Assembly (NCBI RefSeq): GCF_003363715.1
Contig: NZ_QREV01000002.1
Span: 124,001 to 188,000 of the forward strand
Reading direction: 5' to 3'
Length of the DNA: 64,000 nt
DNA from: Parabacteroides acidifaciens
GTDB taxonomy: Bacteria > Bacteroidota > Bacteroidia > Bacteroidales > Tannerellaceae
Position numbers and translations under genes: made by a program. Below, one piece after another: positions 2,328 through 16,088 of this stretch (its first letter is position 1; every line of letters begins with the position of its first letter). Below the pieces are notes generated by a model, which saw nothing but the letters and a program-made list of their open reading frames with translations, did no database searches and was not told the DNA's origin.

Positions 2328-4172
2328 TTATTTATTTTTCAGATAGTCTTCCGGGATTGTCGTGGCACTTCCGTCGCGGCTGGCAAAGTAGTGTGGTGAC
2401 ATGATTTCGACACCGGCTTCGTTGAAGGTGTCCTGGATATTCTGGTGCAGATCGGAGGTGATCTGTGCCAGTCGGTCGGCATCTCTGATGTAAGCGTTGA
2501 TCTGATAACAAGGATAATAGTCCTGTAGTTCAGTCTCCAACACGAATGGTTTCGGATGAGCCAGAACGCCAGGGGTGGAACGGGCTGCATTTATCAACAA
2601 TTGGTGGACCTGTCGCCAGGGTGCGTCATAACCAATCGTCACTGTCGTGTGGATGATAAGTCCGAACTGGCGTGCCGAAGCGCTGTAGTTGACGGTGTGG
2701 GACGACATGATAAAGGCATTCGGTATCGTCACCACTTCATTCTTGGGCGTACGCAAGCGGGTGACGAAAGGTGTCTTTTCGATTACGTTACCGGTTGTCT
2801 CGTTCAGCTTGATACGGTCACCCAGCTTGAAGGGGCGCATATAGGTGATGACAAGTCCGGCAATGATATTCCCGATCACCGTACTGGAACCGAGTGAGAT
2901 AATCAAACCTACAAATACCGATATCCCCTGGAACACACCGGATTTGGATCCCGGCAGATAAGGATAGACCATTGCGATCATAAAGGCGTAGAGCAAAAAG
3001 CGGATGATATTAAACGTCGGTTGCGCCCAGTCCGGGTAGAAGCCGGTGATCTTCAGCTTTTCGTTCTCGATCTCGTTGGCGATGTATTGCATTCCCTTTA
3101 TGATATACTTGATACAGTACCAGATTACCAGAATGATGAACAGGTTCGGGATGTACTCTATGATCGATTTGAAAACCATTTTGACCGGTTCCATGATATA
3201 GATGAATATCCTGAGTGCCAGTTTCTCTGTTTGCGGGAAGATGGCGAACAGCATCGGGACACTGAACATCAACTGTATCAGCAGGACGATATACCGGCAT
3301 ATATTGCTGAAGAATATCAGAATACGCCCTTGCCGGTGTGTATTCAGAAACTCGTAATCGCGGATGACGATCGATTTCAGCCGTTGTTGCTTGAGCCGTA
3401 TGATCTGCCGGCGCAGCTTCCGGAAAAGGTAGTTTGTCACGCGGAACAGCAGATATTGGATGGCCAGGACCAACACGAAAAGTGCTGCCCGCTTGGCAAC
3501 CTGCAACAGGCTGTTTTCCTCTTTCAGCTCCTTGATTTTTTCGGCAATGACGGGCACATATTGCTGTGCCAACTCCTGGCGTGTCGTGTTCTGCCAAAGC
3601 GCATCCTGGTCGGTAATGCTGGCGATCACTTTGTCGCCATACATGATGTCGACGTAATACTCGCTGTCGAACGTATAGACCGAATCTTTGTGCAGCTTGC
3701 GGTCTTTCCCGATCTTCAGGATGATGTCGTTGACGCTCGCTGCACGGTCGAGGGCTGAATGTCCGCCCCGCTTGGCATACAAGGTGAAAAGCGTGTCGCC
3801 ATCCACCAAGACCGGTACGCCGGGCGTGAGGGCACGGAGCGAGTCTATACTGCGACGTTGCTCTACGCGTTTCAGTGAATCGGTTGCCAGATTTCGGTTG
3901 TGTGCGTCATCTAATTCTGTGCGCAGAACAATCTCGTTCAGCCTCATTTCCTGTAGCTGTAATGTCATCTCCTGGATACGGATCGAATCCAGGCGGTGAC
4001 GCTCTTCGACAGTCAGCGTGTCAGCCGAGACTGTCGGAAGAGAATCGGGGTGAGGCTCGTTGATGGCTGTCTGGATCAGCTTTTCAGCCTTTTCGATCAA
4101 CTGTGCCTGGGCCGGAGAATAGAAAGCAAATATCCCGATAAAGATCAGGAAATATTCCGCTAATTGTTTCAT
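2328..4172 (-). CDS. MscS-family mechanosensitive ion channel with periplasmic extension
   Basis: A 614-residue protein. It has an N-terminal signal sequence (to about residue 23) and a charged helical periplasmic region to about 220. Several membrane segments follow (about 225-250, 290-320, 340-365, 385-410, 420-450). The MscS core has a Gly/Ala-rich pore helix (SVFVGLIISLGSSTVIGNII) and then the beta domain with FKLGDRIKLNETTGNVIE. Such channels release solutes upon hypo-osmotic shock. The large N-terminal part is like MscK/YbdG-type enlarged family members. It follows the DPP IV gene by 31 nt on the same strand, so they are probably co-transcribed; no functional link is evident. Confidence 0.9.
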   Translation of the reverse strand: MKQLAEYFLIFIGIFAFYSPAQAQLIEKAEKLIQTAINEPHPDSLPTVSADTLTVEERHRLDSIRIQEMTLQLQEMRLNEIVLRTELDDAHNRNLATDSLKRVEQRRSIDSLRALTPGVPVLVDGDTLFTLYAKRGGHSALDRAASVNDIILKIGKDRKLHKDSVYTFDSEYYVDIMYGDKVIASITDQDALWQNTTRQELAQQYVPVIAEKIKELKEENSLLQVAKRAALFVLVLAIQYLLFRVTNYLFRKLRRQIIRLKQQRLKSIVIRDYEFLNTHRQGRILIFFSNICRYIVLLIQLMFSVPMLFAIFPQTEKLALRIFIYIMEPVKMVFKSIIEYIPNLFIILVIWYCIKYIIKGMQYIANEIENEKLKITGFYPDWAQPTFNIIRFLLYAFMIAMVYPYLPGSKSGVFQGISVFVGLIISLGSSTVIGNIIAGLVITYMRPFKLGDRIKLNETTGNVIEKTPFVTRLRTPKNEVVTIPNAFIMSSHTVNYSASARQFGLIIHTTVTIGYDAPWRQVHQLLINAARSTPGVLAHPKPFVLETELQDYYPCYQINAYIRDADRLAQITSDLHQNIQDTFNEAGVEIMSPHYFASRDGSATTIPEDYLKNK

Positions 4173-4203
4173 GTCGAACTATTACTGTATATCTGCTTGT
4201 TTG

Positions 4204-6510
4204 TTATTTGCCGCCGGCCGGCAGGTGGTCGAGCCAGTATTTAGCCATTGTCATGCGCAGGTGGAGCGTCGTTCCCGGACGTTCGTATATGCCGTGGCTA
4301 CGCATCGGGTAGCTGACCTGGCTGAACATCTTGCCGTGTTTCACCAACTCGTTCACCAGCATTTCGCAGTTCTGGTAATGAACGTTGTCATCACCTGTGC
4401 CGTGTATCAGCAGCAGATTGCCCTTCAGACCGGATGCGTATGTGATCGGCGAACCTTTGCGGTAGCCGTCCGGGTTGTTCTGCGGCGTATTCATATAACG
4501 TTCCTGGTAGATCGTATCGTAGGTGCGCTGGTCGGCGACGAAAGCGATGGCGATACCCGTGTGGAATACCTCCGGATAACGGAACATGGAGTTCAGCGTC
4601 TGGCTTCCTCCGCCGCTCCATCCGGTGATGCCGATGCGGGCGGTGTCGATAAACGGATAACGGCGTGCCATATCCTGGATGCCGCGTGCCTGGTCTTCAG
4701 AAGCAAACGTACCGACTTCGCCATAGATACACTTGCGCCATTCGCGTCCGCGCGGTGTATTGGCTCCGCGGTTGTCGATGCTGACCACGATGTATCCGAG
4801 GTTGGCGATATACTGGTTCCACAGGTCGCCGCCTCCCCATACATCCTGTACCGTTGAGCTTGCCGGTTCGCCATAGACTTCTATGATAACGGGATATTTC
4901 TTTGTCGCATCGAAATTGACAGGCTTGATCATCCAGGCATCCAGCGTGAGGTCGCCCGATGTCACTTTGACAAACTCTTTCGGATTCAGGCCGAGGGCTG
5001 CATATTGTTCGCGTGCCTTGGCGTTGTCCTCAATGACCCGTACGGACTGGTGTTTGGGGAAAGAAACCATATCGATCACCGAAGGGGTAGCCGCATTGCT
5101 ATAGGTGTGGACGGCCCATTTACCGGTGGGTGACATATTATAGCGGTGCTGTCCCGGTTGGTCCGCCGGGCTGAGGCGTTTCACATCGCCTTTGCCGAAC
5201 AGGTTAGCGCTGTACAGATAACGCTGCGTGAAGTTATCCGGAGAAGCAATGAAGTAGACTAACCCTTTTTGAAGGTCTGTCCCGACCGGCGAGATGTAAT
5301 CGAAATCGCCTTTCGTAATGGGCAGAATCTCTTTCCCGTCGCGGCTGATGCGGTAGAGATGGCGCCAGCCGTCGCGTTCGCTTTCCCATGTGAACCAGGT
5401 GTTGTCTTTCAACCACTGGATATTGTCGTTCGTGTCTAACCAGGCGGCATCCGTGTCGGTAAATATATTTTCAGGCGTGGCACTGCCGATGCGGGCAATC
5501 CAGACCTTATTCGTATTCTGCGGGCGGTTCAACTGCTGGATAAACAGTTCGTTGCTTCCGGGGATAAATTCCATACGCGGGATATAGTTATTACGCGGGT
5601 CGCCCGGAATCTCCACCCAGGTAGTCGCTCCGCCGGCCACCGGCAGATAGCCCACTTTGACAGCCGAGTTCGTGCATCCTGCCTTCGGGTAAGGGAAATG
5701 CAGGATGGTCGGATAGATGGAATCTACATTGTTGATGATGTCGAACACGCCCGTCCCTTTCGTATCGCTCTGCCAATAGGCGATGTACTGTCCGTCCGGA
5801 CTCCAGCGGAAACCGTCGCGGCAGGCGAACTCTTCTTCATACACCCAGTCGAATGTCCCGTTCACGATCGTATCGCTTCCGTCGTGTGTCAACTTTGTGA
5901 CCTGGCCGGAGGCGATGTCTTCCACATATAGATTGTTGCGTGATACATAGGCCACACGCGTTCCGTCGGGAGAGAACTTGGCGAACATCATGGACGATTC
6001 GGGCAGCCCTTTACCCAACCTGCGGAGTGAACCGTCTTTCAAACTCAGCACCCAGTAGTCGCCTCGTGTGTCGTAGCGCCATACCCGCTGGGTATTGGTA
6101 TATATCAGAACCTTCTCATTGTCGGCACTCCAGGAGATGCTGCGGATGGCGATCGGTTTTCCTGTCTCTTTATTGATAAACATGGACGAGGGGATGATGA
6201 CTTCGCGCCGGTTGTCTTTGGCTCGGTAGGCAACGATGTCCATGCCGCCTGTCTCGGTGTTCGGTTCCATCCGGCTGTAGCGTTCGCCGTCTTTCATCCA
6301 GTTCATGGCGCCGATTCCTCTGGTCTGCACCAACCGTCCGGCTACGACATCTTCGAGATGCAGCTTGCCTTGCGTTTTGGCTGTTTCGCTTTTGGCAAAC
6401 GGATCATTGTCCGTCTCCGTCCGGTTTTCCCAAGGCATGATTTGTGCCATACAGACATTTCCGGCAAACAGTATGCAGGCTACCGGAAGAATGAGTTTGT
6501 TTAGTTTCAT
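4204..6510 (-). CDS. dipeptidyl peptidase IV (S9B serine peptidase)
   Basis: A 768-residue protein with signal peptide MKLNKLILPVACILFAGNVCMA. The N-terminal eight-blade beta-propeller holds the DWVYEEEF double-Glu motif that anchors the free amino end of the substrate. The C-terminal alpha/beta-hydrolase domain has nucleophile Ser632 in GWSGGG, Asp707/708 in GTGDDNVH and His739 in RSHGI. It removes X-Pro (or X-Ala) dipeptides from peptides in the periplasm. The residue after the nucleophile is Gly where DPP IV enzymes usually have Tyr (GWSYGG), so specificity may differ. It is the first gene of a pair with the MscS-type channel. Confidence 0.92.
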   Translation of the reverse strand: MKLNKLILPVACILFAGNVCMAQIMPWENRTETDNDPFAKSETAKTQGKLHLEDVVAGRLVQTRGIGAMNWMKDGERYSRMEPNTETGGMDIVAYRAKDNRREVIIPSSMFINKETGKPIAIRSISWSADNEKVLIYTNTQRVWRYDTRGDYWVLSLKDGSLRRLGKGLPESSMMFAKFSPDGTRVAYVSRNNLYVEDIASGQVTKLTHDGSDTIVNGTFDWVYEEEFACRDGFRWSPDGQYIAYWQSDTKGTGVFDIINNVDSIYPTILHFPYPKAGCTNSAVKVGYLPVAGGATTWVEIPGDPRNNYIPRMEFIPGSNELFIQQLNRPQNTNKVWIARIGSATPENIFTDTDAAWLDTNDNIQWLKDNTWFTWESERDGWRHLYRISRDGKEILPITKGDFDYISPVGTDLQKGLVYFIASPDNFTQRYLYSANLFGKGDVKRLSPADQPGQHRYNMSPTGKWAVHTYSNAATPSVIDMVSFPKHQSVRVIEDNAKAREQYAALGLNPKEFVKVTSGDLTLDAWMIKPVNFDATKKYPVIIEVYGEPASSTVQDVWGGGDLWNQYIANLGYIVVSIDNRGANTPRGREWRKCIYGEVGTFASEDQARGIQDMARRYPFIDTARIGITGWSGGGSQTLNSMFRYPEVFHTGIAIAFVADQRTYDTIYQERYMNTPQNNPDGYRKGSPITYASGLKGNLLLIHGTGDDNVHYQNCEMLVNELVKHGKMFSQVSYPMRSHGIYERPGTTLHLRMTMAKYWLDHLPAGGK

Positions 6511-6539
6511 GTATATTAGTTTTAATAGTTTGCTGCCTG

Positions 6540-6572
6540 CAAAGAACGGAATGTTTTACGAGATGGACAAAA
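6540..6572 (-). promoter_or_regulatory. probable promoter of the DPP IV-MscS pair
   Basis: On the minus strand a TTTG (-33 type) is followed after 20 nt by GTTCTTTG, matching the TAnnTTTG -7 box in its TTTG half only. The 5' leader would be about 25 nt. Confidence 0.4.
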
Positions 6573-6714
6573 GAAAGAATTTAAATGTTTATGTAACAGA
6601 AAAAAATTAACTTGGCGCATTGGGAATATAATGCTTTTGTGCAACATGCTCTTCTTTCCCATATTTAAAAAGAAAAATGTCAGATATAAGAATAGACAAT
6701 TCTTTCACTCATTT

Positions 6715-6722
6715 TACCTTTG
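6715..6722 (+). promoter_or_regulatory. -7 box of the rhamnosidase gene
   Basis: TACCTTTG is a perfect TAnnTTTG match 28 nt ahead of the chosen ATG (6750). No clear TTTG is seen at -33. Confidence 0.55.
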
Positions 6723-6749
6723 TCCTCAAATCACAAAAAGAAGAATACC

Positions 6750-9038
6750 ATGAGTAAATTATTGAACCGATTCACCCTGTTTGCCTCTTGCGCCCTTTCT
6801 GCGTTTTGCCTGCAGGCTGCTGACAGGAAGCCTTCCGGGCTAATGACTGATCTGATTGAACATACTGAACGGACCTGGCAGAACGGCTATGCGTCGAACC
6901 TGCCGGTCTGGAAACTCGATGTTGCGATAGAACCCCTGCAATATGCCGCCATACGTTCGGCGCATCCCGCCTTTTCATGGATCGTGCCCGGTGAAACCGA
7001 GGGGACGTGCCAGACGGCCTACCGGTTGATCGTGGCTGATAACCCGGCTGATGCCGCCGCCGGAAAAGGCAATGTATGGGATAGCGGGGAGGTCGGAAGT
7101 GACCGTTCGGTGGCTGTCCGTTATGCCGGTGAGGCATTGAAACCCGGCACTGCCTACTTCTGGCGGGTGAAGACAACAACGAATACCGAAGGCGAAAGCG
7201 ACTGGTCTGAGGTGAAAGCATTCCGCACAGCCGACCGCCTGTCCGAATATGAAACGACTTACTATCCGCAGGTGAAAACAATGGAATATCCGGCCGGTGT
7301 GAAGGAACTTGGTTCCGGTACGCGACTGATCGACTTCGGTAAGGATGCTTTCGGACAATTAGTGCTGACGCTAACGTCGGACGGGAGATGCGATTCGGTG
7401 ATCGTACACCTGGGAGAGTGCCTGGAAAACGGACGTATCCTGCGCGATCCGGGAAAGTCAACGATCCGTTACCATCGCTATCCGTTGGCTTTGATGAAGG
7501 GGACCAATACGTACCGGATCAAGATCGATAAAGACAGACGGAATACCGGTTCGGCAGCTGTGCTGATGCCGGAGTATGTCGGCGAGGTAATGCCTTTCCG
7601 CTATTGTGAGATTGAAGGATATGAGGGCGCTTTACCGTCTGCTGCTGTTGTCCGCGAAACGGTGCACTATCCTTTTGACGAGACGGCTTCCTCTTTCCGT
7701 TGTTCCAATGATACGCTGAACCAGATTTGGGACCTGTGTAAATATTCAGTCCGTGCAACCTCTTTTACAGGTATTTATGTGGATGGGGATCGCGAACGAA
7801 TCCCGTATGAGGCGGATGCCCTGATCAACCAGCTTTGCCATTATGGCGTGGATCGCGAATATGCGATAGCACGGCGTTCGCATGAATACTTGTTGCAATA
7901 TCCTACCTGGCCTACCGAGTGGATATTGCAGGCTGTGTCGATTGCCTGGTATGATTATCTGTACACGGGCGACAGCCGTTCGTTGGAGGCAAGCTATGAT
8001 ATCTTGAAAGCCCGTACCTTGTTGCAGCTTCGTGAGAAAAACGGTTTGATCAGTACGACAACCGGCTTGCAGACGGATGCTTTTCTGAAATCCATTCGTT
8101 TTAAAGATAAGATACGGGATATCGTCGATTGGCCTCATACCGGTATCCTCGGTTTAGGAAAACAGGAGGGGGGAGAATCCGACGGATTTGTCTTTACCGA
8201 CTATAACGCCGTAACGAATGCCTGGCATTATGAAGCCCTGAAGCTGATGGGGCGTATTGCCGGCGTGCTCGACAAGACGGAGGACGCTGCTTTCTTTACT
8301 TCCGAATCGGAGGCTTTCAGGAAGTTATACACCCGTTCTTTCTTCAACGCCCGTAAAGGGTATTTCATCGATGGGCTGGCTGCCGATACCGAACATGCGT
8401 CCCTGCATGGCAATATGTTTCCGCTGACGTTCGACCTGGTTCCGGCAGGGAAGAAAGAAGGGGTTGCCCGCTTTCTCCAAACCCGTGGTATGGCTTGCAG
8501 CGTCTATGGCTCGCAATTCCTGATGGATGCCCTCTATGAAGCGAATGATGCCGAATATGCCTTGCATATGCTGACGAAAACGGACGACCGGAGCTGGTAT
8601 AATATGATCCGTGTCGGCTCGACCATCTCGCTCGAAGCCTGGGATAACAAATATAAACCGAACCAGGACTGGAACCATGTCTGGGGTGCTGCCCCGGCTA
8701 ATATCATCCCGCGCCGTCTGATGGGTGTCGAACCGCTGACGCCGGGTTTCGGTACGATCCGTATCAAACCGCAACTTGCCTCTTTGGACTGGGCTGAAGC
8801 TACGGTCCCGACGATCCGGGGTGGCGTTCGGATGTCTGTTGAAAACAAGGCTGACTCCTATACGCTGAAAGTGACGATCCCGGCCAATATGTCCGCTGAA
8901 GTTTATCTGCCGCTTCCCTCCGGTAAGTATGCTGTAACGAAAAACGGGACTCCTGTAAAGGTTTCCCGCGTAAAAGGCGAACCGTTCCTGTATGCCGGAA
9001 AGATCGGTTCAGGGAGCTATAGCTTTGTCGTGGATTGA
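6750..9038 (+). CDS. GH78-type alpha-L-rhamnosidase
   Basis: A 762-residue protein. The start at 6750 gives a signal peptide ending near CLQAADRK. The layout is an N-terminal Fn3-like/beta-sandwich domain (to about residue 310, including PGTAYFWRVKT) and an (alpha/alpha)6 barrel with DGDRERIPYEAD (from Asp345) holding the expected acidic catalytic residues. Further on are AWDNKYKPNQDWNHVWG and a C-terminal beta domain (GFGTIRIKPQ). GH78 enzymes cut terminal alpha-L-rhamnose from pectins, flavonoids or bacterial glycans by inversion. It acts in the periplasm or at the surface. No SusCD or other glycan gene adjoins it. A 9-codon copy of its 3' end lies beyond the serpin gene (11870-11896). Confidence 0.88.
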   Translation: MSKLLNRFTLFASCALSAFCLQAADRKPSGLMTDLIEHTERTWQNGYASNLPVWKLDVAIEPLQYAAIRSAHPAFSWIVPGETEGTCQTAYRLIVADNPADAAAGKGNVWDSGEVGSDRSVAVRYAGEALKPGTAYFWRVKTTTNTEGESDWSEVKAFRTADRLSEYETTYYPQVKTMEYPAGVKELGSGTRLIDFGKDAFGQLVLTLTSDGRCDSVIVHLGECLENGRILRDPGKSTIRYHRYPLALMKGTNTYRIKIDKDRRNTGSAAVLMPEYVGEVMPFRYCEIEGYEGALPSAAVVRETVHYPFDETASSFRCSNDTLNQIWDLCKYSVRATSFTGIYVDGDRERIPYEADALINQLCHYGVDREYAIARRSHEYLLQYPTWPTEWILQAVSIAWYDYLYTGDSRSLEASYDILKARTLLQLREKNGLISTTTGLQTDAFLKSIRFKDKIRDIVDWPHTGILGLGKQEGGESDGFVFTDYNAVTNAWHYEALKLMGRIAGVLDKTEDAAFFTSESEAFRKLYTRSFFNARKGYFIDGLAADTEHASLHGNMFPLTFDLVPAGKKEGVARFLQTRGMACSVYGSQFLMDALYEANDAEYALHMLTKTDDRSWYNMIRVGSTISLEAWDNKYKPNQDWNHVWGAAPANIIPRRLMGVEPLTPGFGTIRIKPQLASLDWAEATVPTIRGGVRMSVENKADSYTLKVTIPANMSAEVYLPLPSGKYAVTKNGTPVKVSRVKGEPFLYAGKIGSGSYSFVVD

Positions 9039-9167
9039 TTTTGTTCGCTTGGCATGGGGTTGATGCAATGGGATAAATCATTTATCTATGTTTTTGTGTC
9101 ATTTATTGGCATTTTTGAAAGAGTTTTATAATTATATTTAAGCATTGAATTTTAATGTTTACCAAGT

Positions 9168-10598
9168 ATGAAAAGGCTCTTTGATTTAAAATTTATGGGA
9201 CACTTGTTGGCTACCACATTGTTGGTATTCGTATTTGGTTGTACCCAAAGTGATTTGGAACGGAATTCGATTGTTCCGGTTACAAATGTGAATGATGGTG
9301 CTATTCTTGCATCGACTCTCTCTCATGCCATCCCTATGGATTCAATAGAATCAATAGCGAAATTATTACCTAATACATTTAATAAGGAACAAACAAAAAG
9401 TAGTGAAAAAGTAATTAAAGAAATTTTGCCGTTGAGCCATTTTGTCTATGAAGCACCTCGGACGAAAAGTACAGAGGAATATGCCGATTATATTTATGTT
9501 GTAAATTATGAAGACAATCAGGGCTTTTCTATCATTTCTCAAGATACGCGCATCCCGACTGTATTGGGATATTCGGATAATGGGAATATTACGCCGGGAG
9601 AAATACATGACGGGCTGGCTTATGTGTTAAACTCAATCCCGAATTATGTAAATCAGAAGATGGAAGAATACCAACAGATGCTCGATAGCCTTAATCAGCA
9701 TCTGGATGTAGCCTCGTTGCTTGTCCGGACAAAGGCTTTCGGCGATTGCCAGTATGATTCTTTGGCTACAGTAGTGGATGGCACAGGTTATGACATAGAC
9801 AATTCGGCCAATAACCGGATTATCGATGTTTACAATATCACCGAAGGCGATTGGATTCTTGAGGGACAGAACGGACCGTTATATAATGGTGTCCGTTGGC
9901 ATCAAGGATATCCTTACAATGTTAATATTCCTTCTAGGCCTGGATGTTCCAATGCTTTGGTCGGATGTGTGGCGATAGCAGTTGCTCATATTTTGGCTTA
10001 TAATCAATATCCGGGTAGTTTTACGGCGAAAGGAGTTTCTTATTCTGTTAATTACGGTACATTATCATCTACCTACGCTCCTTTTTTGAGAGGGGTTGCC
10101 GATGCCGTTGATATGGATTATGGATGTGGAAATCCAATTGATGATGGAAGCGGTTCTCTCATTAGCAATGCTAAAGCTGCACTCGAAAATATATTTCATT
10201 ATAAAACCGGCGGTGCTGTCTCTTATAATTGGAATGATGTATATTCTGATTTGGCTAATAATAGACTTGTGTATACACAAGGACGAACAGTTAATGATGA
10301 GGGGCATGCATGGATTATTGACGGATATTATAGAAGGAGTAAATTAACGCATCAGATAGGTGTTGTGTATAGCAATTCTTTGAATTGTGTAGTAGGTTAC
10401 AGATGTATAGGTGAAACTACTCCGGTTCAGAATTTAGTTCATTGTAATTGGGGGTGGTATTCCCGTATTGGAGACGGGTACTTTGAAAGCGGTATATTTA
10501 CACCTTCACATCCTGTTATTGGTGAAGGGTATCCTGATCCTTCTGAAGATTATAATTTTGGTCAATCACAAATGATCATCAAAAACGTACGTCCATGA
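9168..10598 (+). CDS. C10-family (streptopain-like) cysteine protease, lipoprotein
   Basis: A 476-residue protein with lipoprotein signal (VFVFGC). It has a Spi/PrtT-type propeptide (YVVNYEDNQGFSIISQDTRI) and a C10 catalytic domain with Cys267 in VGCVAIAVAHILAYNQYPG and His380 in GHAWIIDGY, then HCNWGW. These enzymes are made as zymogens, and relatives include streptopain (SpeB) and the Bacteroides fragilis Bfp proteases. The gene is strikingly AT-rich compared with its upstream neighbour, suggesting transfer. Its last four bases overlap the start of the serpin gene (ATGA), so the protease and a putative inhibitor are made together. It probably acts at the cell envelope. Confidence 0.9.
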   Translation: MKRLFDLKFMGHLLATTLLVFVFGCTQSDLERNSIVPVTNVNDGAILASTLSHAIPMDSIESIAKLLPNTFNKEQTKSSEKVIKEILPLSHFVYEAPRTKSTEEYADYIYVVNYEDNQGFSIISQDTRIPTVLGYSDNGNITPGEIHDGLAYVLNSIPNYVNQKMEEYQQMLDSLNQHLDVASLLVRTKAFGDCQYDSLATVVDGTGYDIDNSANNRIIDVYNITEGDWILEGQNGPLYNGVRWHQGYPYNVNIPSRPGCSNALVGCVAIAVAHILAYNQYPGSFTAKGVSYSVNYGTLSSTYAPFLRGVADAVDMDYGCGNPIDDGSGSLISNAKAALENIFHYKTGGAVSYNWNDVYSDLANNRLVYTQGRTVNDEGHAWIIDGYYRRSKLTHQIGVVYSNSLNCVVGYRCIGETTPVQNLVHCNWGWYSRIGDGYFESGIFTPSHPVIGEGYPDPSEDYNFGQSQMIIKNVRP

Positions 10599-11848
10599 AA
10601 ACAAATTTAATTCCTTTTATTTTACTTATCGCTCTGTTTGCGGGGTGTTCGGATAATGAAGATTCACCGAATATCCCGAAAGAACGGGTCGATATCGAGT
10701 TGACGGCTGAAGAACGACAAGTCAACGATCAGGTTCAGGATTTTGCTTTTGATTTCATCCGTGCATTTGCACAGGAAAGAGAAAAAAAGGAACCGGAGAT
10801 CAAGAATTATGCAATATCCCCGTTAAGCCTTTCTTTTGTATTGGGTATGGTGCTGAACGGGGCGGATGGTGAGACATACAAGCAAATGCAAGAAGTTTTG
10901 GGTTTCGGAGGAATGGACAATGAAAGTATCAACCGGTATATGCAAACCATGCGAATCGCTTTGCCGGATTTGGACAACACGACTACATTCCTCAACGCAA
11001 ACAGTATCTGGATGGCGAAAGGCTGGAACTTCCTGCCGGATTTCAAACAGATGAACCAGACCTATTACGATGCCTTGCTAAAAGCGGATGAAGATTTCGA
11101 CCAAAAAAGTGCGGATGCAATCAACGGGTGGTGTAAAGAGAAAACGAAAGGGATGATACCGGAATTTGTAGAAGTGGACGAAATTAGCAGCTTGAAAGTC
11201 TTGCTTCTGAATGCCCTCTACTTTAAAGGCAAATGGAAATATCCTTTTGAACCGTCTGAAACCCAGATGCAAGTTTTCGTACGGAAGGATGGATCGCCGA
11301 TCAGAGTGCCGATGATGAAGATGCATAAAGTTTTGGCATGTGTTTCTACAGACGATGCCATTATCGTCTCGCTCCCTTACGGGAATGGGGCATTTAATAT
11401 GCAGCTCTTGCTGCCTGCCGACCGGACGGTCCCCATCGAAGAACTGTTAGGAAATTTGACCTCGGAGCAATGGAATGAATGGAAAGCACAGGAAATGGGT
11501 TATTCGGTTACGTTTGCATTACCCAAATTCGATATCGATTATGAAGATGGAAAGTTGCATAATGTTCTGAAGGTGTTGGGAATTGGAGATGCCTTTACAT
11601 CAAAAGCTGATTTTTCAAAAATGTGCAATGCAGGTCTATATATTTCTTGGGTTAAGCAGCGTTCGGTGATTCATGTCGATGAGAACGGGACGGAAGCCTC
11701 TGTAGTAACGGGGGTAGGAGGGGCTACAGATGATATGCCTCCTGCTTTGCAAGTCGATTTCAACCGTCCTTTTGCATTCTTCATAACAGAAGTCAGCACG
11801 AACACGATTATTTTTGTCGGGAAAGTGGGGGATCCGATTGTGAAATAA
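10595..11848 (+). CDS. serpin-family protease inhibitor, surface-type lipoprotein
   Basis: A 417-residue serpin with lipobox LFAGC. The acidic stretch after Cys (SDNEDS) resembles the Bacteroidetes signal for export of lipoproteins to the cell surface. The fold is near full length, from NYAISPLSLSFVLGMVLNGADGET to FNRPFAFFITE..TIIFVGKV. The hinge of the reactive loop is well kept (ENGTEASVV, Glu363-Gly365-Thr366), so it is likely inhibitory. Counting P15 from Gly365 puts P1-P1' at Asp379-Asp380. It overlaps the C10 protease gene by 4 nt, an arrangement expected for translational coupling. Cross-class inhibition of the C10 enzyme is possible but unproven; alternatively it blocks host proteases. 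Confidence 0.92.
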   Translation: MKTNLIPFILLIALFAGCSDNEDSPNIPKERVDIELTAEERQVNDQVQDFAFDFIRAFAQEREKKEPEIKNYAISPLSLSFVLGMVLNGADGETYKQMQEVLGFGGMDNESINRYMQTMRIALPDLDNTTTFLNANSIWMAKGWNFLPDFKQMNQTYYDALLKADEDFDQKSADAINGWCKEKTKGMIPEFVEVDEISSLKVLLLNALYFKGKWKYPFEPSETQMQVFVRKDGSPIRVPMMKMHKVLACVSTDDAIIVSLPYGNGAFNMQLLLPADRTVPIEELLGNLTSEQWNEWKAQEMGYSVTFALPKFDIDYEDGKLHNVLKVLGIGDAFTSKADFSKMCNAGLYISWVKQRSVIHVDENGTEASVVTGVGGATDDMPPALQVDFNRPFAFFITEVSTNTIIFVGKVGDPIVK

Positions 11849-11857
11849 TGGGAAATA

Positions 11858-11896
11858 ATGTTTGGGAACGGGAGCTATAGCTTTGTTGTAAACTGA
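11858..11896 (+). pseudogene. remnant of a rhamnosidase 3' end
   Basis: Reads GNGSYSFVVN-stop, versus GSGSYSFVVD-stop at the end of the intact rhamnosidase. Seventeen bases (11870-11886) are identical to 9012-9028, and 23 of the 27 bases from there to the stop match; two of the four differences are silent third-position changes. No further similarity is visible on either side. It looks like the tail of a lost paralogue, or a trace of the event that placed the protease-serpin pair here. Confidence 0.7.
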
Positions 11897-11905
11897 TCTT
11901 TCCCA

Positions 11906-11969: not shown

Positions 11970-12476
11970 ATGAAGAGAACTATTTATGCGGCAGCCTGTT
12001 TGATGATGGTATTGCTGATTGGGTTTACAGCCTGTGGAGATGATGACAACAACTTTTCTGCCGAGCAGATCGCCTATTTCGAAAAGAACCGCGATTATAT
12101 CCGCGAGAAGAAAGCCCTTAAGGGTGAGGACGGGGAATTGCTTTATAAACAGGTGGTTTTAGGTGGCGATACCGCATTGTATCGTGTGTTGAGCAAGGAA
12201 GGAACGGAGATGGAGAAGCCGACGAGACAGACTACTATCACAGTGACATTGAAAGGCGATTTTATTAATAATACTAACTTTCAGCCGGAAATGTCGATGC
12301 CGCTTACTCCGGTAGGGGTAGTTCCCGGTTTGGGTGCTATCTTGTTAGAAAACACAGTCGGTGAACGGGTTGAAGCTATTATACCGGCTTATTTAGGATA
12401 TGGATATTATGACAACAGGGGAATCCCTGCCGGTTCAACCCTGATCTTCACTTATACAGTTGAGAAATTCAATTGA
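11970..12476 (+). CDS. FKBP-type peptidyl-prolyl isomerase lipoprotein
   Basis: A 168-residue protein with lipobox FTAC followed by GDDDNN, an acidic tract typical of surface-exposed Bacteroidetes lipoproteins. The C-terminal half is an FKBP domain (VGVVPGLGAILLENTVGERVEAIIPAYLGYG..IPAGSTLIFTYTVEKF). FKBP isomerases speed cis-trans rotation at proline bonds and help fold exported proteins. The usual Trp of the VIPGW motif at the floor of the active site is Leu (VVPGL), so catalysis may be weak. It has its own promoter and terminator and is probably independent of the serpin gene. Confidence 0.85.
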   Translation: MKRTIYAAACLMMVLLIGFTACGDDDNNFSAEQIAYFEKNRDYIREKKALKGEDGELLYKQVVLGGDTALYRVLSKEGTEMEKPTRQTTITVTLKGDFINNTNFQPEMSMPLTPVGVVPGLGAILLENTVGERVEAIIPAYLGYGYYDNRGIPAGSTLIFTYTVEKFN

Positions 12477-12602: not shown

Positions 12603-13730
12603 TCAGGCATTCAGCACCTTGCGGAAACGAACCAGGAACTCTTTCGCCTCGTCTATCGTCAGACAAAGAGGAGGGAGCAGACGGATCGTATTTGTTCCGG
12701 CAACACCCGTGAAGACCTTCTCTTCGAACAGCAGTTTGCTGCGCACTTCCTTGATCGACTCTTCAAACTCGATACCGATCATCAGGCCTCGTCCGCGAAT
12801 TTCCTTGATACCTGGAAGTTTGTGCAGTTCTTCCAGCAGGTATGCACCCACTTTGGCCGCATTGTCGATCAGCTTCTCATCTTCCATAATATCCAGTACG
12901 GCGATGGCTGCCGCACATGCCAGATGGTTACCTCCGAATGTCGTTCCCAACATACCATATACAGGCTTGAACATCGGGCTGATCAGTAATCCGCTCATCG
13001 GAAAACCGTTGCCGATACCTTTGGCAACCGTGATCAGATCCGGCTTGATCCCTGCATACTGGTGGGCAAAGAACTTTCCGCTACGTCCGTAACCGGATTG
13101 GATTTCATCCAGGATCAGGCAGGCTTCATATTTCGTACACAAGGCACGCAGTTCCTGCATGAAGGAATCTGTTGGCAGTTGGATACCGCCTACACCCTGG
13201 ATCCCTTCGATGATAACCGAGGATACATCGCCTTTTTTCAGTTCTGCTTCTACGGCTGCTGCATCGTTCAGGGGCACGTAGGTTACAGCCAGGTCTTCAT
13301 TTACCGGTGCGATGATCTTCGGGTTATCGGTCACGCGTACGGCTGCCGATGTGCGTCCGTGAAACGCGTGTTTGAAGGCGATCACCCGCTTCTTGCCGTT
13401 ATGGAAAGAAGCTAACTTCAGGGCATTTTCGTTTGCTTCGGCTCCCGAGTTAATCAGGAACAGCGAGTAGTCGTCGTAGCCGCAGGCTTTACCTAACTTG
13501 TCTGCTAACTTCTGCTGAAGGCTGTTGATGACAGAGTTGGAATAGAATCCTAACTTGCCGACTTGTTCGGAGATAGCCTTCACATAAGTGGGATGGCTAT
13601 GGCCGACGGAGATCACGGCATGTCCGCCATACAGGTCGAGGTACTCGTTTCCCTCCGTGTCCCATACATGGCATCCTTTGCCTTTCTGTATCTCGATATT
13701 AAATAATGGATATACGTCGAATAAATGCAT
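12603..13730 (-). CDS. argD: acetylornithine (or succinylornithine) aminotransferase
   Basis: A 375-residue class-III PLP aminotransferase starting MHLFDVYPLF. Longer readings start inside the intergenic repeat (ANWHIGKL...) and are rejected. The PLP-binding Lys237 lies in TVAKGIGNG; SGAEANENALK and the LDEIQSGYGRSGK motif are present. It converts N-acyl-glutamate semialdehyde to N-acylornithine in arginine synthesis. In Bacteroides the pathway is known to use N-succinyl rather than N-acetyl intermediates at the transcarbamylase step, so the substrate here may be succinylated. It is the last gene of the minus-strand arg operon in this window. Confidence 0.93.
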   Translation of the reverse strand: MHLFDVYPLFNIEIQKGKGCHVWDTEGNEYLDLYGGHAVISVGHSHPTYVKAISEQVGKLGFYSNSVINSLQQKLADKLGKACGYDDYSLFLINSGAEANENALKLASFHNGKKRVIAFKHAFHGRTSAAVRVTDNPKIIAPVNEDLAVTYVPLNDAAAVEAELKKGDVSSVIIEGIQGVGGIQLPTDSFMQELRALCTKYEACLILDEIQSGYGRSGKFFAHQYAGIKPDLITVAKGIGNGFPMSGLLISPMFKPVYGMLGTTFGGNHLACAAAIAVLDIMEDEKLIDNAAKVGAYLLEELHKLPGIKEIRGRGLMIGIEFEESIKEVRSKLLFEEKVFTGVAGTNTIRLLPPLCLTIDEAKEFLVRFRKVLNA

Positions 13731-13748
13731 AATGAATAATGTGTTTAA

Positions 13749-13825
13749 TTTGCCAATGTGCCAATTTGCCAATGAAGAAGACACCTGTATTTCTTAATTG
13801 GCATATTGGCAAATTGGCACATTGA
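13749..13825. repeat. TTGGCA/TGCCAA inverted repeat between argC and argD
   Basis: The left arm (TGCCAAT units from 13751) and right arm (TTGGCA units to 13825) share a perfect 19-bp stem. The same family recurs at 14819-14887 and, as one arm only, at 16135-16156. It would form a stable hairpin in the arg mRNA. Confidence 0.85.
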
Positions 13826-13832
13826 TTAATTA

Positions 13833-14801
13833 TTAAAACGCCGAAGGCTTAAGGTGCAGGCCGACCGTTTCTTCGAGGCCGAACAACAGGTTCATATTGT
13901 GGACGGCTTGGCCGCTGGCGCCTTTCAGCAGGTTGTCGATCATCGAGATGATCAGCAACTTGTCTTCATGTTTCTGCAAATGGATCAAGCACTTGTTGGT
14001 GTTGACCACCTGTTTCAGATCCGGATTCTTGTCTGTGATGAAGGTGAACGAATGATCATCGTAATACTCTTCGTAAATACGCGTGATCTCATCTAACCCG
14101 ATCTTACAGTCCAGATAAGTTGTCGCGAAGATGCCTCGCGAGAAGTTTCCTCTTACCGGGATAAAGTTGATCGAGCTGCTGAAACTGTTCTGCAACTGGC
14201 GCAGACTTTGTCCGATCTCGGCAAGGTGCTGATGCGTGAATGGTTTGTAGATCGAGATATTGTCGTTTCGCCAGCTGAAGTGGGAAGTAGACGACGGCTT
14301 TACGCCGGCTCCCGTCGAACCCGTGATTGCGTTTACATGCAATTCGGAGTTCAGCATCAGGTGCTTGGCTAATGGTAAAACGCCTAACTGGATACAGGTG
14401 GCAAAACATCCCGGGTTTGCAATATGTTTAGCGCCGCAGATGCGGCGTCGGTTCAGCTCGGGCAGGCCGTACACGAAATCGTGTTCGGGGCTTTCGATAC
14501 GGTAGTCCATGCTAAGATCGATGATCTTCACATTTTCGGGTACGGTATGGCTTTCCATGAACTTCTTCGTATCGCCGTGGGCGGTACAGAAGAACAGCAG
14601 GTCGATCTGGTCCAACGGCAGTTCACCGGTAAACACCAGGTCGGTTTCTCCATATAGTCCGCTGTGCACATCCGTTATCTTGTTACCTGCATTGCTCGTA
14701 CTGTTCACAAATGTAATCTCGGCGTCCGGATGATTCAGCAGCAGGCGAATCAGTTCGCCTGCCGTGTATCCCGCACCACCTATAATTCCTATCTTGATCA
14801 T
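13833..14801 (-). CDS. argC: N-acetyl-gamma-glutamyl-phosphate reductase
   Basis: A 322-residue protein. The start MIKIGIIGGAGYTAGELIRLL (ATG 14801) gives the NADP-binding GxxGxxG at once; the upstream extension lies in the repeat. The catalytic Cys is in NPGCFATC, and GSTGAGVKPS and the FFCTAHGD segment fit ArgC. It reduces N-acyl-glutamyl phosphate to the semialdehyde, the step before ArgD. It lies between argG and argD and is separated from both by the TTGGCA-type hairpins. Confidence 0.95.
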   Translation of the reverse strand: MIKIGIIGGAGYTAGELIRLLLNHPDAEITFVNSTSNAGNKITDVHSGLYGETDLVFTGELPLDQIDLLFFCTAHGDTKKFMESHTVPENVKIIDLSMDYRIESPEHDFVYGLPELNRRRICGAKHIANPGCFATCIQLGVLPLAKHLMLNSELHVNAITGSTGAGVKPSSTSHFSWRNDNISIYKPFTHQHLAEIGQSLRQLQNSFSSSINFIPVRGNFSRGIFATTYLDCKIGLDEITRIYEEYYDDHSFTFITDKNPDLKQVVNTNKCLIHLQKHEDKLLIISMIDNLLKGASGQAVHNMNLLFGLEETVGLHLKPSAF

Positions 14802-14818
14802 AAATAATGTGTATAATT

Positions 14819-14887
14819 TGCCAATATGCCAATGTGCCAATTAAGAATGCGAATGTATCCATTAATTGGCACATTGGCATATTGGCA
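14819..14887. repeat. TTGGCA/TGCCAA inverted repeat between argG and argC
   Basis: Arms 14819-14844 and 14862-14887 are perfectly complementary over 26 bp, with a 17-nt loop. Each arm is three 8-bp units of TGCCAAT(A/G/T). Confidence 0.9.
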
Positions 14888-14897
14888 CATTGATTAA

Positions 14898-16088
14898 TTA
14901 TATTTTATGGTTATTATAATAAACACGCAGCGGAGTGGAAGTTACCTTGATGAATCCTTTTGCATCTTCGGCAGTCCAGCCCTTTTGCATTTCGCCGTAT
15001 TCGCCGAACTTGGTCTTTACCAGGTCGTCTTTCGAGTCGACACCGACGGTCGAGAAGGAGAGCGGGCGAAGTTCCAGGATGGCTGTTCCGTTTACGTTAC
15101 GCTGCGATTCCTGCAACATGGCTTCGATGTCGCGCATAACCGGTTCGAGGTACTGGCTTTCGTGGAGGAACATTCCGTACCAGTTGGCAACCTGGTCTTT
15201 CCAGTACTGCTGCCATTTGCTCAGCGTATATTTTTCGAGGAAACGGTGTGCGCCGATGATCAGCATGGGAGCGGCAGCTTCAAATCCGACACGTCCCTTG
15301 ATACCGATGATGGTGTCTCCCACGTGCATGTCGCGGCCGATGCCGTATGCAGCTCCGATCTCTTCCACCTTCTGGATGGCAGCGATCTTGTCTTCGAAAA
15401 CTTCACCGTTCACGGCATAAATCTCACCATTCTTAAACTCGATGCGAAGTTCTTCGCTACCGGTTTTTTCGACTTGTTTCAGGTAAGCGCTTTCGGGTAA
15501 ACCCTGTGTCGAGTCGAGGATTTCGCCGCCACAGATGGATGTTCCCCACAAGCCTACGTTATAAGAATACTTCAACTTGGTGAAATCCGCTTCGAAACCA
15601 TGTTCTTTCAGGTAGTTGATTTCGTAGTCGCGCGTCAGGGCCATGTCGCGTGTCAGCGTGATGATCTCTACGTTCGGAGCCAGTACCAGGAACGTCATGT
15701 CGAAACGGATCTGGTCGTTTCCTGCGCCGGTAGAACCGTGGGCGATAGCATCCGCACCAATCTCATTTGCATAGCGGGCGATTGCCAATGCCTGGAAGAT
15801 ACGTTCCGAGCTGACGGAGATCGGATACGTGCCGTTACGCAGTACGTTTCCGAAGATCATATATTTCAGGCTCTTTTCATAATATTCTTTTGTAACATCG
15901 ATAGTCACATATTTGGTTGCGCCCAACTTGTAGGCGTTTTCTTCATTCTGCTTCAGTTGTTCTTCGCTGAAACCGCCTGTGTTGGCACAAGCTGCATACA
16001 CTTCATAACCCTTTTCTTTAGCCAGATACATAACAGTAAAAGATGTATCCAATCCTCCGCTGAATGCGACTACTACTTTCTTCTTCAT
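14898..16088 (-). CDS. argG: argininosuccinate synthase
   Basis: A 396-residue enzyme with the ATP pyrophosphatase P-loop near the start (AFSGGLDTSF), then STGAGNDQIRFD and SICGGEILDSTQGLPES. It joins citrulline and aspartate using ATP to make argininosuccinate. The length and motifs are those of a complete ArgG. The start follows the GNAT gene by 84 nt that contain one arm of the TTGGCA repeat. It is expected to be repressed by ArgR with the rest of the operon. Confidence 0.96.
   Translation of the reverse strand: MKKKVVVAFSGGLDTSFTVMYLAKEKGYEVYAACANTGGFSEEQLKQNEENAYKLGATKYVTIDVTKEYYEKSLKYMIFGNVLRNGTYPISVSSERIFQALAIARYANEIGADAIAHGSTGAGNDQIRFDMTFLVLAPNVEIITLTRDMALTRDYEINYLKEHGFEADFTKLKYSYNVGLWGTSICGGEILDSTQGLPESAYLKQVEKTGSEELRIEFKNGEIYAVNGEVFEDKIAAIQKVEEIGAAYGIGRDMHVGDTIIGIKGRVGFEAAAPMLIIGAHRFLEKYTLSKWQQYWKDQVANWYGMFLHESQYLEPVMRDIEAMLQESQRNVNGTAILELRPLSFSTVGVDSKDDLVKTKFGEYGEMQKGWTAEDAKGFIKVTSTPLRVYYNNHKI

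Follow-up and report, generated by a model that had tools for sequence, protein, structure and literature searches.

In the Bacteroides systems Bfp/Bfi and Btp/Bti, the zymogen of a C10 protease is encoded next to an exported, staphostatin-like partner; the two genes are in one transcript, with the partner gene located upstream or downstream, and inhibition by the partner is a prediction (PMC2873492, PMC3462683). Similarly, the SpeB-Spi system of Streptococcus and the staphopain-staphostatin system of Staphylococcus combine a papain-clan protease with a co-encoded inhibitor (PMC3462683). Here we analyse a gene pair of comparable layout, a lipoprotein C10 protease followed by a lipoprotein serpin, in a 64,000-nucleotide (nt) stretch of the Parabacteroides acidifaciens genome (contig NZ_QREV01000002.1). 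The whole stretch is called the window; features of the locus are on its plus strand unless stated otherwise. The background on Bacteroides C10 proteases and their partners given in the original prediction, made from the letters of the window, was correct. We put at somewhat below 60% the probability that the two genes form a transferable cassette of a protease and its inhibitor, with the serpin acting as an anchored inhibitor of the C10 protease and protecting the producer.

The partner in the window differs from those described. The Bacteroides partners are beta-rich proteins of 116-138 amino acids (aa), whereas the window partner is a serpin of 417 aa, a member of a family acting irreversibly. 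The inhibitors of the SpeB-Spi and staphopain-staphostatin systems are small and thought to be cytoplasmic, Spi being a propeptide analogue. In the window, by contrast, the I69-type propeptide is part of the protease itself, and the serpin is a second partner that is exported; Pfam assigns this partner to the serpins and not to the small proteins of I69 or staphostatin type.

Miropin of Tannerella forsythia, the species of the KLIKK proteases, is a serpin like the window partner, and it was proposed to protect T. forsythia from the serine proteases that this bacterium secretes (PMC4404884). A close relative of miropin (locus L116) has no C10 neighbour, and the window serpin falls into another, C10-linked clade. 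T. forsythia, which belongs to the same family as the window genome, also has potempins, lipoprotein inhibitors paired with secreted proteases. The KLIKK/potempin systems differ from the window pair in having other protease families and non-serpin inhibitors.

Judged by titles and the openings of abstracts, no report of a C10-serpin pair was found in the open literature on serpins, C10 operons, lipoprotein inhibitors of Bacteroidetes, streptopain and Parabacteroides gene clusters (subscription papers and preprints were outside the scope). Such a pair is not described in the available parts of PMC8861167, PMC7999743, PMC8201313, PMC7863939 and PMC13271334; the word 'serpin' is absent from the main texts of PMC2873492 and PMC3462683. 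The serpin as a partner would appear to be the new element in a known type of protease-inhibitor operon, with self-protection by a serpin already proposed for miropin.

The gene pair in the window

The protease gene (9168..10598) encodes a predicted lipoprotein zymogen of 476 aa; the best sequence matches of this protein in PDB are SpeB and interpain. The serpin gene is located at 10595..11848. As originally predicted, the two open reading frames (ORFs) overlap by 4 nt (ATGA, 10595..10598), and both proteins carry lipoprotein signals, with a lipobox-like Cys at residue 25 of the C10 protein and at residue 18 of the serpin. The same stop/start overlap is present in L028 (the L008 locus) and L026.

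In the C10 precursor, the predicted lipobox Cys25 (VFGC, 9240..9242) is followed by an I69/Spi-type propeptide domain at aa 71-159 (9378..9644; PF13734, 54 bits, above the curated cut-off). The catalytic region, about aa 240-439 (9885..10484), was delimited by Pfam, by alignment with the PDB matches and by alignment of C10 rows; the Pfam C10 score (PF01640) is 82.4 bits with a curated cut-off of 26. Residues Cys267 (codon 9966-9968) and His380 (codon 10305-10307) are within GCVA and GHA segments aligned to streptopain (SpeB) or interpain, and neither varies in any of the 11 rows in an alignment of C10 proteins with a serpin nearby. An NWGW motif is present at aa 427-430. Cys267 and His380 are taken as the catalytic pair by comparison with the catalytic residues of SpeB. 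As judged from its domain and Cys/His motifs, the window protease is a member of peptidase family C10.

The serpin domain (PF00079) is full length, covering profile positions 3-370 of 370 with 318 bits, and the best PDB match is miropin (E 4e-57). Non-inhibitory serpins often lack a hinge of the inhibitory type. In the window serpin, the hinge and reactive-centre loop (GTEASVVTGVGGATDDMPPALQVD, 11687..11758) include the hinge ENGTEASVVT, where GTEASVVT is of the inhibitory type; ASVV replaces AAAA as a conservative variant of the ExGTEAAAA-type motif compatible with loop insertion (PMC8233489).

The predicted lipobox Cys18 of the serpin (10646..10648) is followed by SDNED, which resembles the SDDDD signal proposed for surface export in B. 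fragilis (PMC5080379). Such SDNED-like signals are present in the window serpin and its orthologs, and we use them for the window clade only. As a feature of the whole class of linked serpins the export signal was rejected: at least two acidic residues after the called Cys were found in 4 of 8 serpins, compared with 32 of 49 C10 proteins and 43 of 56 other partners. In several of these serpins, the simple lipobox caller chose an early Cys.

The window genome has three serpins and three C10 genes (four C10 domain rows). No C10 was detected in the retrieved stretches around the two other serpins, one of which is located at a contig end.

Conservation of the C10-serpin pairing

Serpin and C10 searches were done in the same 123 genomes of the window's family; serpins were found in 66 genomes and C10 in 87. 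From these genomes 79 loci were retrieved, with 83 serpin ORFs examined. The 10 loci with pairs were first chosen from search coordinates, and 83 is the number of serpin ORFs examined, not the size of a blind sample. Many fragmentary serpin matches were left out of the retrieved loci, and a neighbour may have escaped detection for some serpins, which are at the end of a contig.

The genome count suggested with the original prediction gave a same-strand C10 neighbour for 10 of the 83 serpin ORFs. These adjacent pairs are spread over 9 of the 123 genomes and over three genera (G000, G050 with two pairs, G052, G008, G006, G020, G083, G094 and G102); the pair is thus not a peculiarity of one strain. 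Six pairs have the C10 gene first, with gaps of −4, −4, −4, 3, 12 and 37 nt. The other four have the serpin gene first, with gaps of 37, 60, 60 and 315 nt (the last one measured to a truncated C10 frame). The ATGA overlap, present in 3 of the 10 pairs, is found in three species of the window's genus. Against the 10 pairs observed, a rough Poisson calculation, for which the numbers of genes and C10s were assumed, gives about 0.05 expected by chance.

Beyond the family, pairing looks rare. No place outside the family shared by a serpin and a C10 gene was seen among the matches listed for 393 genomes of the order, which were matched by eye. A search with C10 alone in named genomes gave 18 loci, and a serpin near C10 was also seen in L008 (the G052 locus), L011 and L025. 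The last two are named loci outside the 123-genome set and are not among the 10 pairs. In L011 (Bacteroidales bacterium) a 175-aa gene is located between C10 and serpin; in L025 (Odoribacter sp.) the C10 is split into two ORFs.

Three other arrangements were recorded. At L011 (974-4717), the C10 gene is located between the genes of two small proteins, of 188 and 175 aa, that look exported and have a common N-terminal stretch, and the serpin gene is further downstream. L120 of G079 (2489-8114) contains four tandem serpin genes, with two junctions having 4-nt overlaps and with no adjoining C10. The unlinked serpins of L036, L136 and L151 all adjoin the same gene, which, from its N-terminus, we take to resemble a Sir2-type deacetylase.

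Probable insertion of the pair as one unit

The pair is located between an alpha-L-rhamnosidase family gene (6720..9038) and an FKBP-type lipoprotein gene (11970..12476), both outside the cassette, and is surrounded by a 31-nt direct repeat. The left copy (9012..9042) takes in the 3′ terminus of the rhamnosidase gene plus the next 4 nt; the right copy (11870..11900) is a remnant of the rhamnosidase 3′ end. The copies are identical at 26 of 31 positions, 17 of them consecutive, and none of 1000 shuffles reached this score. From 11870 onward the window is collinear with the empty site of its relatives.

The comparison covered the FKBP-type lipoprotein gene with its surroundings in eight loci, one of them the window's own. 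The rhamnosidase-type gene directly adjoins the FKBP-type lipoprotein gene in L166, L167, L168 and L169 (genomes G046, G043, G050 and G037, respectively). L170 stops before the neighbour of interest, the rhamnosidase-type gene, and L171 and L172 have different neighbours. Genome G050 has the empty site here and an ATGA-coupled pair on another contig; in L008 (G052) and L026, the pair is found among different neighbours. Given that the pair is located between genes adjoining in four relatives and has the 31-nt direct repeat around it, we conclude that C10 and serpin probably arrived as one cassette. By the empty site and the flanking repeat, this cassette is mobile; it is not an autonomous element. 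Among ORFs of at least 60 aa between the repeats we found C10, the serpin and frames overlapping them, and no transposase or integrase of its own.

As to the genes nearby, the FKBP-type lipoprotein has a sub-threshold match to BamJ (60 bits versus a cut-off of 100). The minus-strand genes beside the insertion site (12603-16088) are presumably genes of arginine biosynthesis.

The partner slot beside related C10 genes

Distinct C10 ORFs were tabulated from 118 loci; rows with identical C-termini were merged, scores below 60 were dropped and contig-edge rows were set apart. An adjacent serpin or another adjacent lipoprotein of 110-450 aa was counted as a slot partner. Such a partner is present for 48 of the 63 single-domain lipoprotein C10s that are not at a contig end (7 serpins and 41 other lipoproteins). 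For C10s of up to 560 aa with no lipobox call the count is 13 of 19, including one serpin, and for long C10s (>560 aa) it is 6 of 27, with no serpins. The difference between 48/63 and 6/27 is significant (Fisher p = 2e-6), also with the serpin cases excluded (41/56, p = 1e-5). Two of the six positives among long C10s, L215 (561 aa) and L060 (580 aa), are probably single-domain proteins whose frames are too long; all six are kept as counted. As a background for the lipobox rule, a lipoprotein neighbour was found at 14 of 71 unlinked serpins and at 3 of 21 window genes (two of the three involve the pair itself).

The slot partners form several groups, with mutual BLAST similarity (E 0.01) that is weak or extends over about 20 residues, if present at all. 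Of the 10 partners scanned, one had a Pfam match over cut-off, to the putative binding domain BACON, and the other 9 had none.

Several loci deserve separate mention. At L027 (1978-7097, G050:C40), two cassettes are in tandem, C10 with a 262-aa lipoprotein and then C10 with a serpin. A lipoprotein family with the pattern DLLNP ... KVWYNGE adjoins C10s across Bacteroidales (L084, L085, L078, L095, L086, L096, L097, L063, L077, L081, L087, L061, L080, L092 and L066); both members scanned (2 of 2) had no Pfam match, and the structure model of the family is all-beta with no good structural match. In L203, L210 and L213, a long C10 protein is followed by a lipoprotein of 175-184 aa, perhaps another type of partner.

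Exchange of partners in phylogenetic trees

With only the 10 adjacent pairs labelled, the tree of 64 C10s requires five changes of the serpin label, at least three of them forced by well-supported branches, and the tree of 80 serpins requires seven changes, all seven forced. For either tree, none of 200 bootstrap replicates united the serpin-linked rows in one clade. With L011 also labelled, the tree of 65 C10s requires six changes, five of them forced; L025 is not in this tree, which also leaves out duplicate loci, domains shorter than 230 aa and the second C10 of L027. With both L011 and L025 labelled, the tree of 82 serpins (L132 left out, L117 and L141 trimmed) requires nine changes, six of them forced.

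Two groups illustrate the exchange. The C10 of L029 (serpin partner) is sister to the C10 of L059 (211-aa lipoprotein partner), with support of 100/100 in the first run and 100/99 in the rerun. In both runs, one group with support 100/100 unites the C10s of L030-L034 (serpins) with those of L055-L058 (lipoproteins of 137-147 aa). On these trees the serpin partner must have been gained or lost several times, and a single pairing inherited unchanged fits neither tree.

Proposed function and alternative explanations

In the mechanism that we propose, the C10 gene would produce a lipid-anchored zymogen carrying its own I69 propeptide, and on maturation the catalytic domain would be cleaved off from the anchor. 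Through translational coupling, the serpin gene would be translated in step with the C10 gene that it overlaps, and the serpin would keep its anchor in the envelope, probably at the cell surface. There it could trap prematurely or locally active C10 as a covalent complex, so that the producer would be protected. The serpin would take the place that, in related cassettes, belongs to a lipoprotein from any of several families.

Biochemically, serpins that have an inhibitory hinge are known as traps for proteases. Papain-like enzymes are among the targets of serpins: human SCCA1 inhibits staphopains (PMC7863939), and miropin was reported to inhibit papain and gingipain (PMC7999743, PMC8201313). 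Maturation would free the B. fragilis C10 enzyme from its lipid anchor (PMC2873492). Serpin inhibition of papain-like enzymes and release from the anchor on maturation together suggest that the enzyme leaves while the anchored serpin guards the producer.

Of the original idea of a protease made with its own inhibitor, the pairing as a unit holds, given the conserved adjacency, the cassette insertion and the exchange of partners in one slot; inhibition of the window C10 by the window serpin would follow from slot and fold, by argument. Several observations weigh against the cassette with a serpin inhibitor. The canonical P1 residue of the window serpin, counted by hand, is presumably Asp, which is no obvious site for a C10 enzyme. 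The window serpin and the serpin of L028 are 45% identical in the loop and 73% in the body, and 14 other serpin pairs with 65-75% body identity have a mean loop identity of 45%. The loop of linked orthologs therefore diverges as fast as that of other pairs, and no cognate bait sequence is visible; a bait signature in the reactive loop was rejected also when all aligned pairs were considered, as linked serpin pairs behaved in the same way as others. In the family, 73 of the 83 serpins examined are not beside C10, and therefore family serpins have other jobs; outside the family, at the level of the order, an adjacent serpin was found at none of 29 retrieved C10 loci.

The trees and the slot have weak points as well. 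Leaving out L011 lowers the number of forced changes on the C10 tree from five to three, gains and losses of the serpin label are inseparable one by one, and some placements are unsure from long branches. AlphaFold2 predicts all-beta folds for two partner families, and the fold comparisons, which are weak, name no inhibitor family. The non-serpin slot partners are candidate inhibitors by position.

The fast-evolving reactive loop and the 73 serpins with no C10 neighbour would fit the strongest alternative, which we consider rather unlikely and yet a serious one. The serpin, similar to miropin, would block proteases of the host or of neighbours (e.g. of elastase type) and not C10, and the genes would be co-expressed since both products are needed at inflamed or crowded sites. 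Miropin, the closest solved relative, inhibits neutrophil elastase, cathepsin G, trypsin and plasmin (PMC8201313), and a miropin-like role of the window serpin against host proteases is possible. However, a shared mission of this kind leaves unexplained why small lipoproteins otherwise fill the same slot beside the same type of protease, and why serpins of several clades are found in that slot.

Another explanation, which we see as improbable, is a module similar to toxin-immunity systems. Released C10 would act against other bacteria nearby or against proteins on their surface, and the producer would be made immune by its anchored partner, whether serpin or small lipoprotein. The two-gene unit with its 31-nt repeat and empty sites, the different partner families in one slot and the tandem cassettes of L027, one with the 262-aa lipoprotein and one with a serpin, would all be in line with such a module. 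However, we saw no sign of delivery to other bacteria, killing is a conjecture, and host proteins are the targets of the C10 enzymes studied so far (PMC2873492).

It is very unlikely that the slot partner is a chaperone, an anchor or an activator of C10, with the serpin fold reused for this purpose. The small partners are uncharacterised (9 of 10 with no Pfam match, the tenth being BACON), which leaves room for such a role; however, the serpin retains a hinge of the inhibitory type. That secreted-protein genes are together here by chance or in a loose cluster, for which the rarity of adjacency outside the family might speak, is hardly credible in view of 10 pairs versus about 0.05 expected with assumed numbers, the ATGA overlap in three of them and the co-insertion.

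Significance of the pairing

A serpin genetically tied to one enzyme offers a candidate native target that can be tested directly. With the serpin as an anchored inhibitor of C10, the reading that we prefer, the pair would be a case of a serpin serving as a dedicated partner of a bacterial cysteine protease. Since a serpin is found in the slot, other slot partners may be inhibitors too. Tentatively, and with the odds against so broad a claim, the Bacteroidales may have a mobile weapon-and-safety cassette that consists of a released lipoprotein C10 and an anchored immunity lipoprotein of freely swapped fold. The suicide serpin would be one recruited fold and thus the key that identifies other unannotated partner families as protease inhibitors. 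The slot being otherwise filled by largely unannotated lipoproteins, an inhibitor function would be predicted for several different protein families of gut bacteria.

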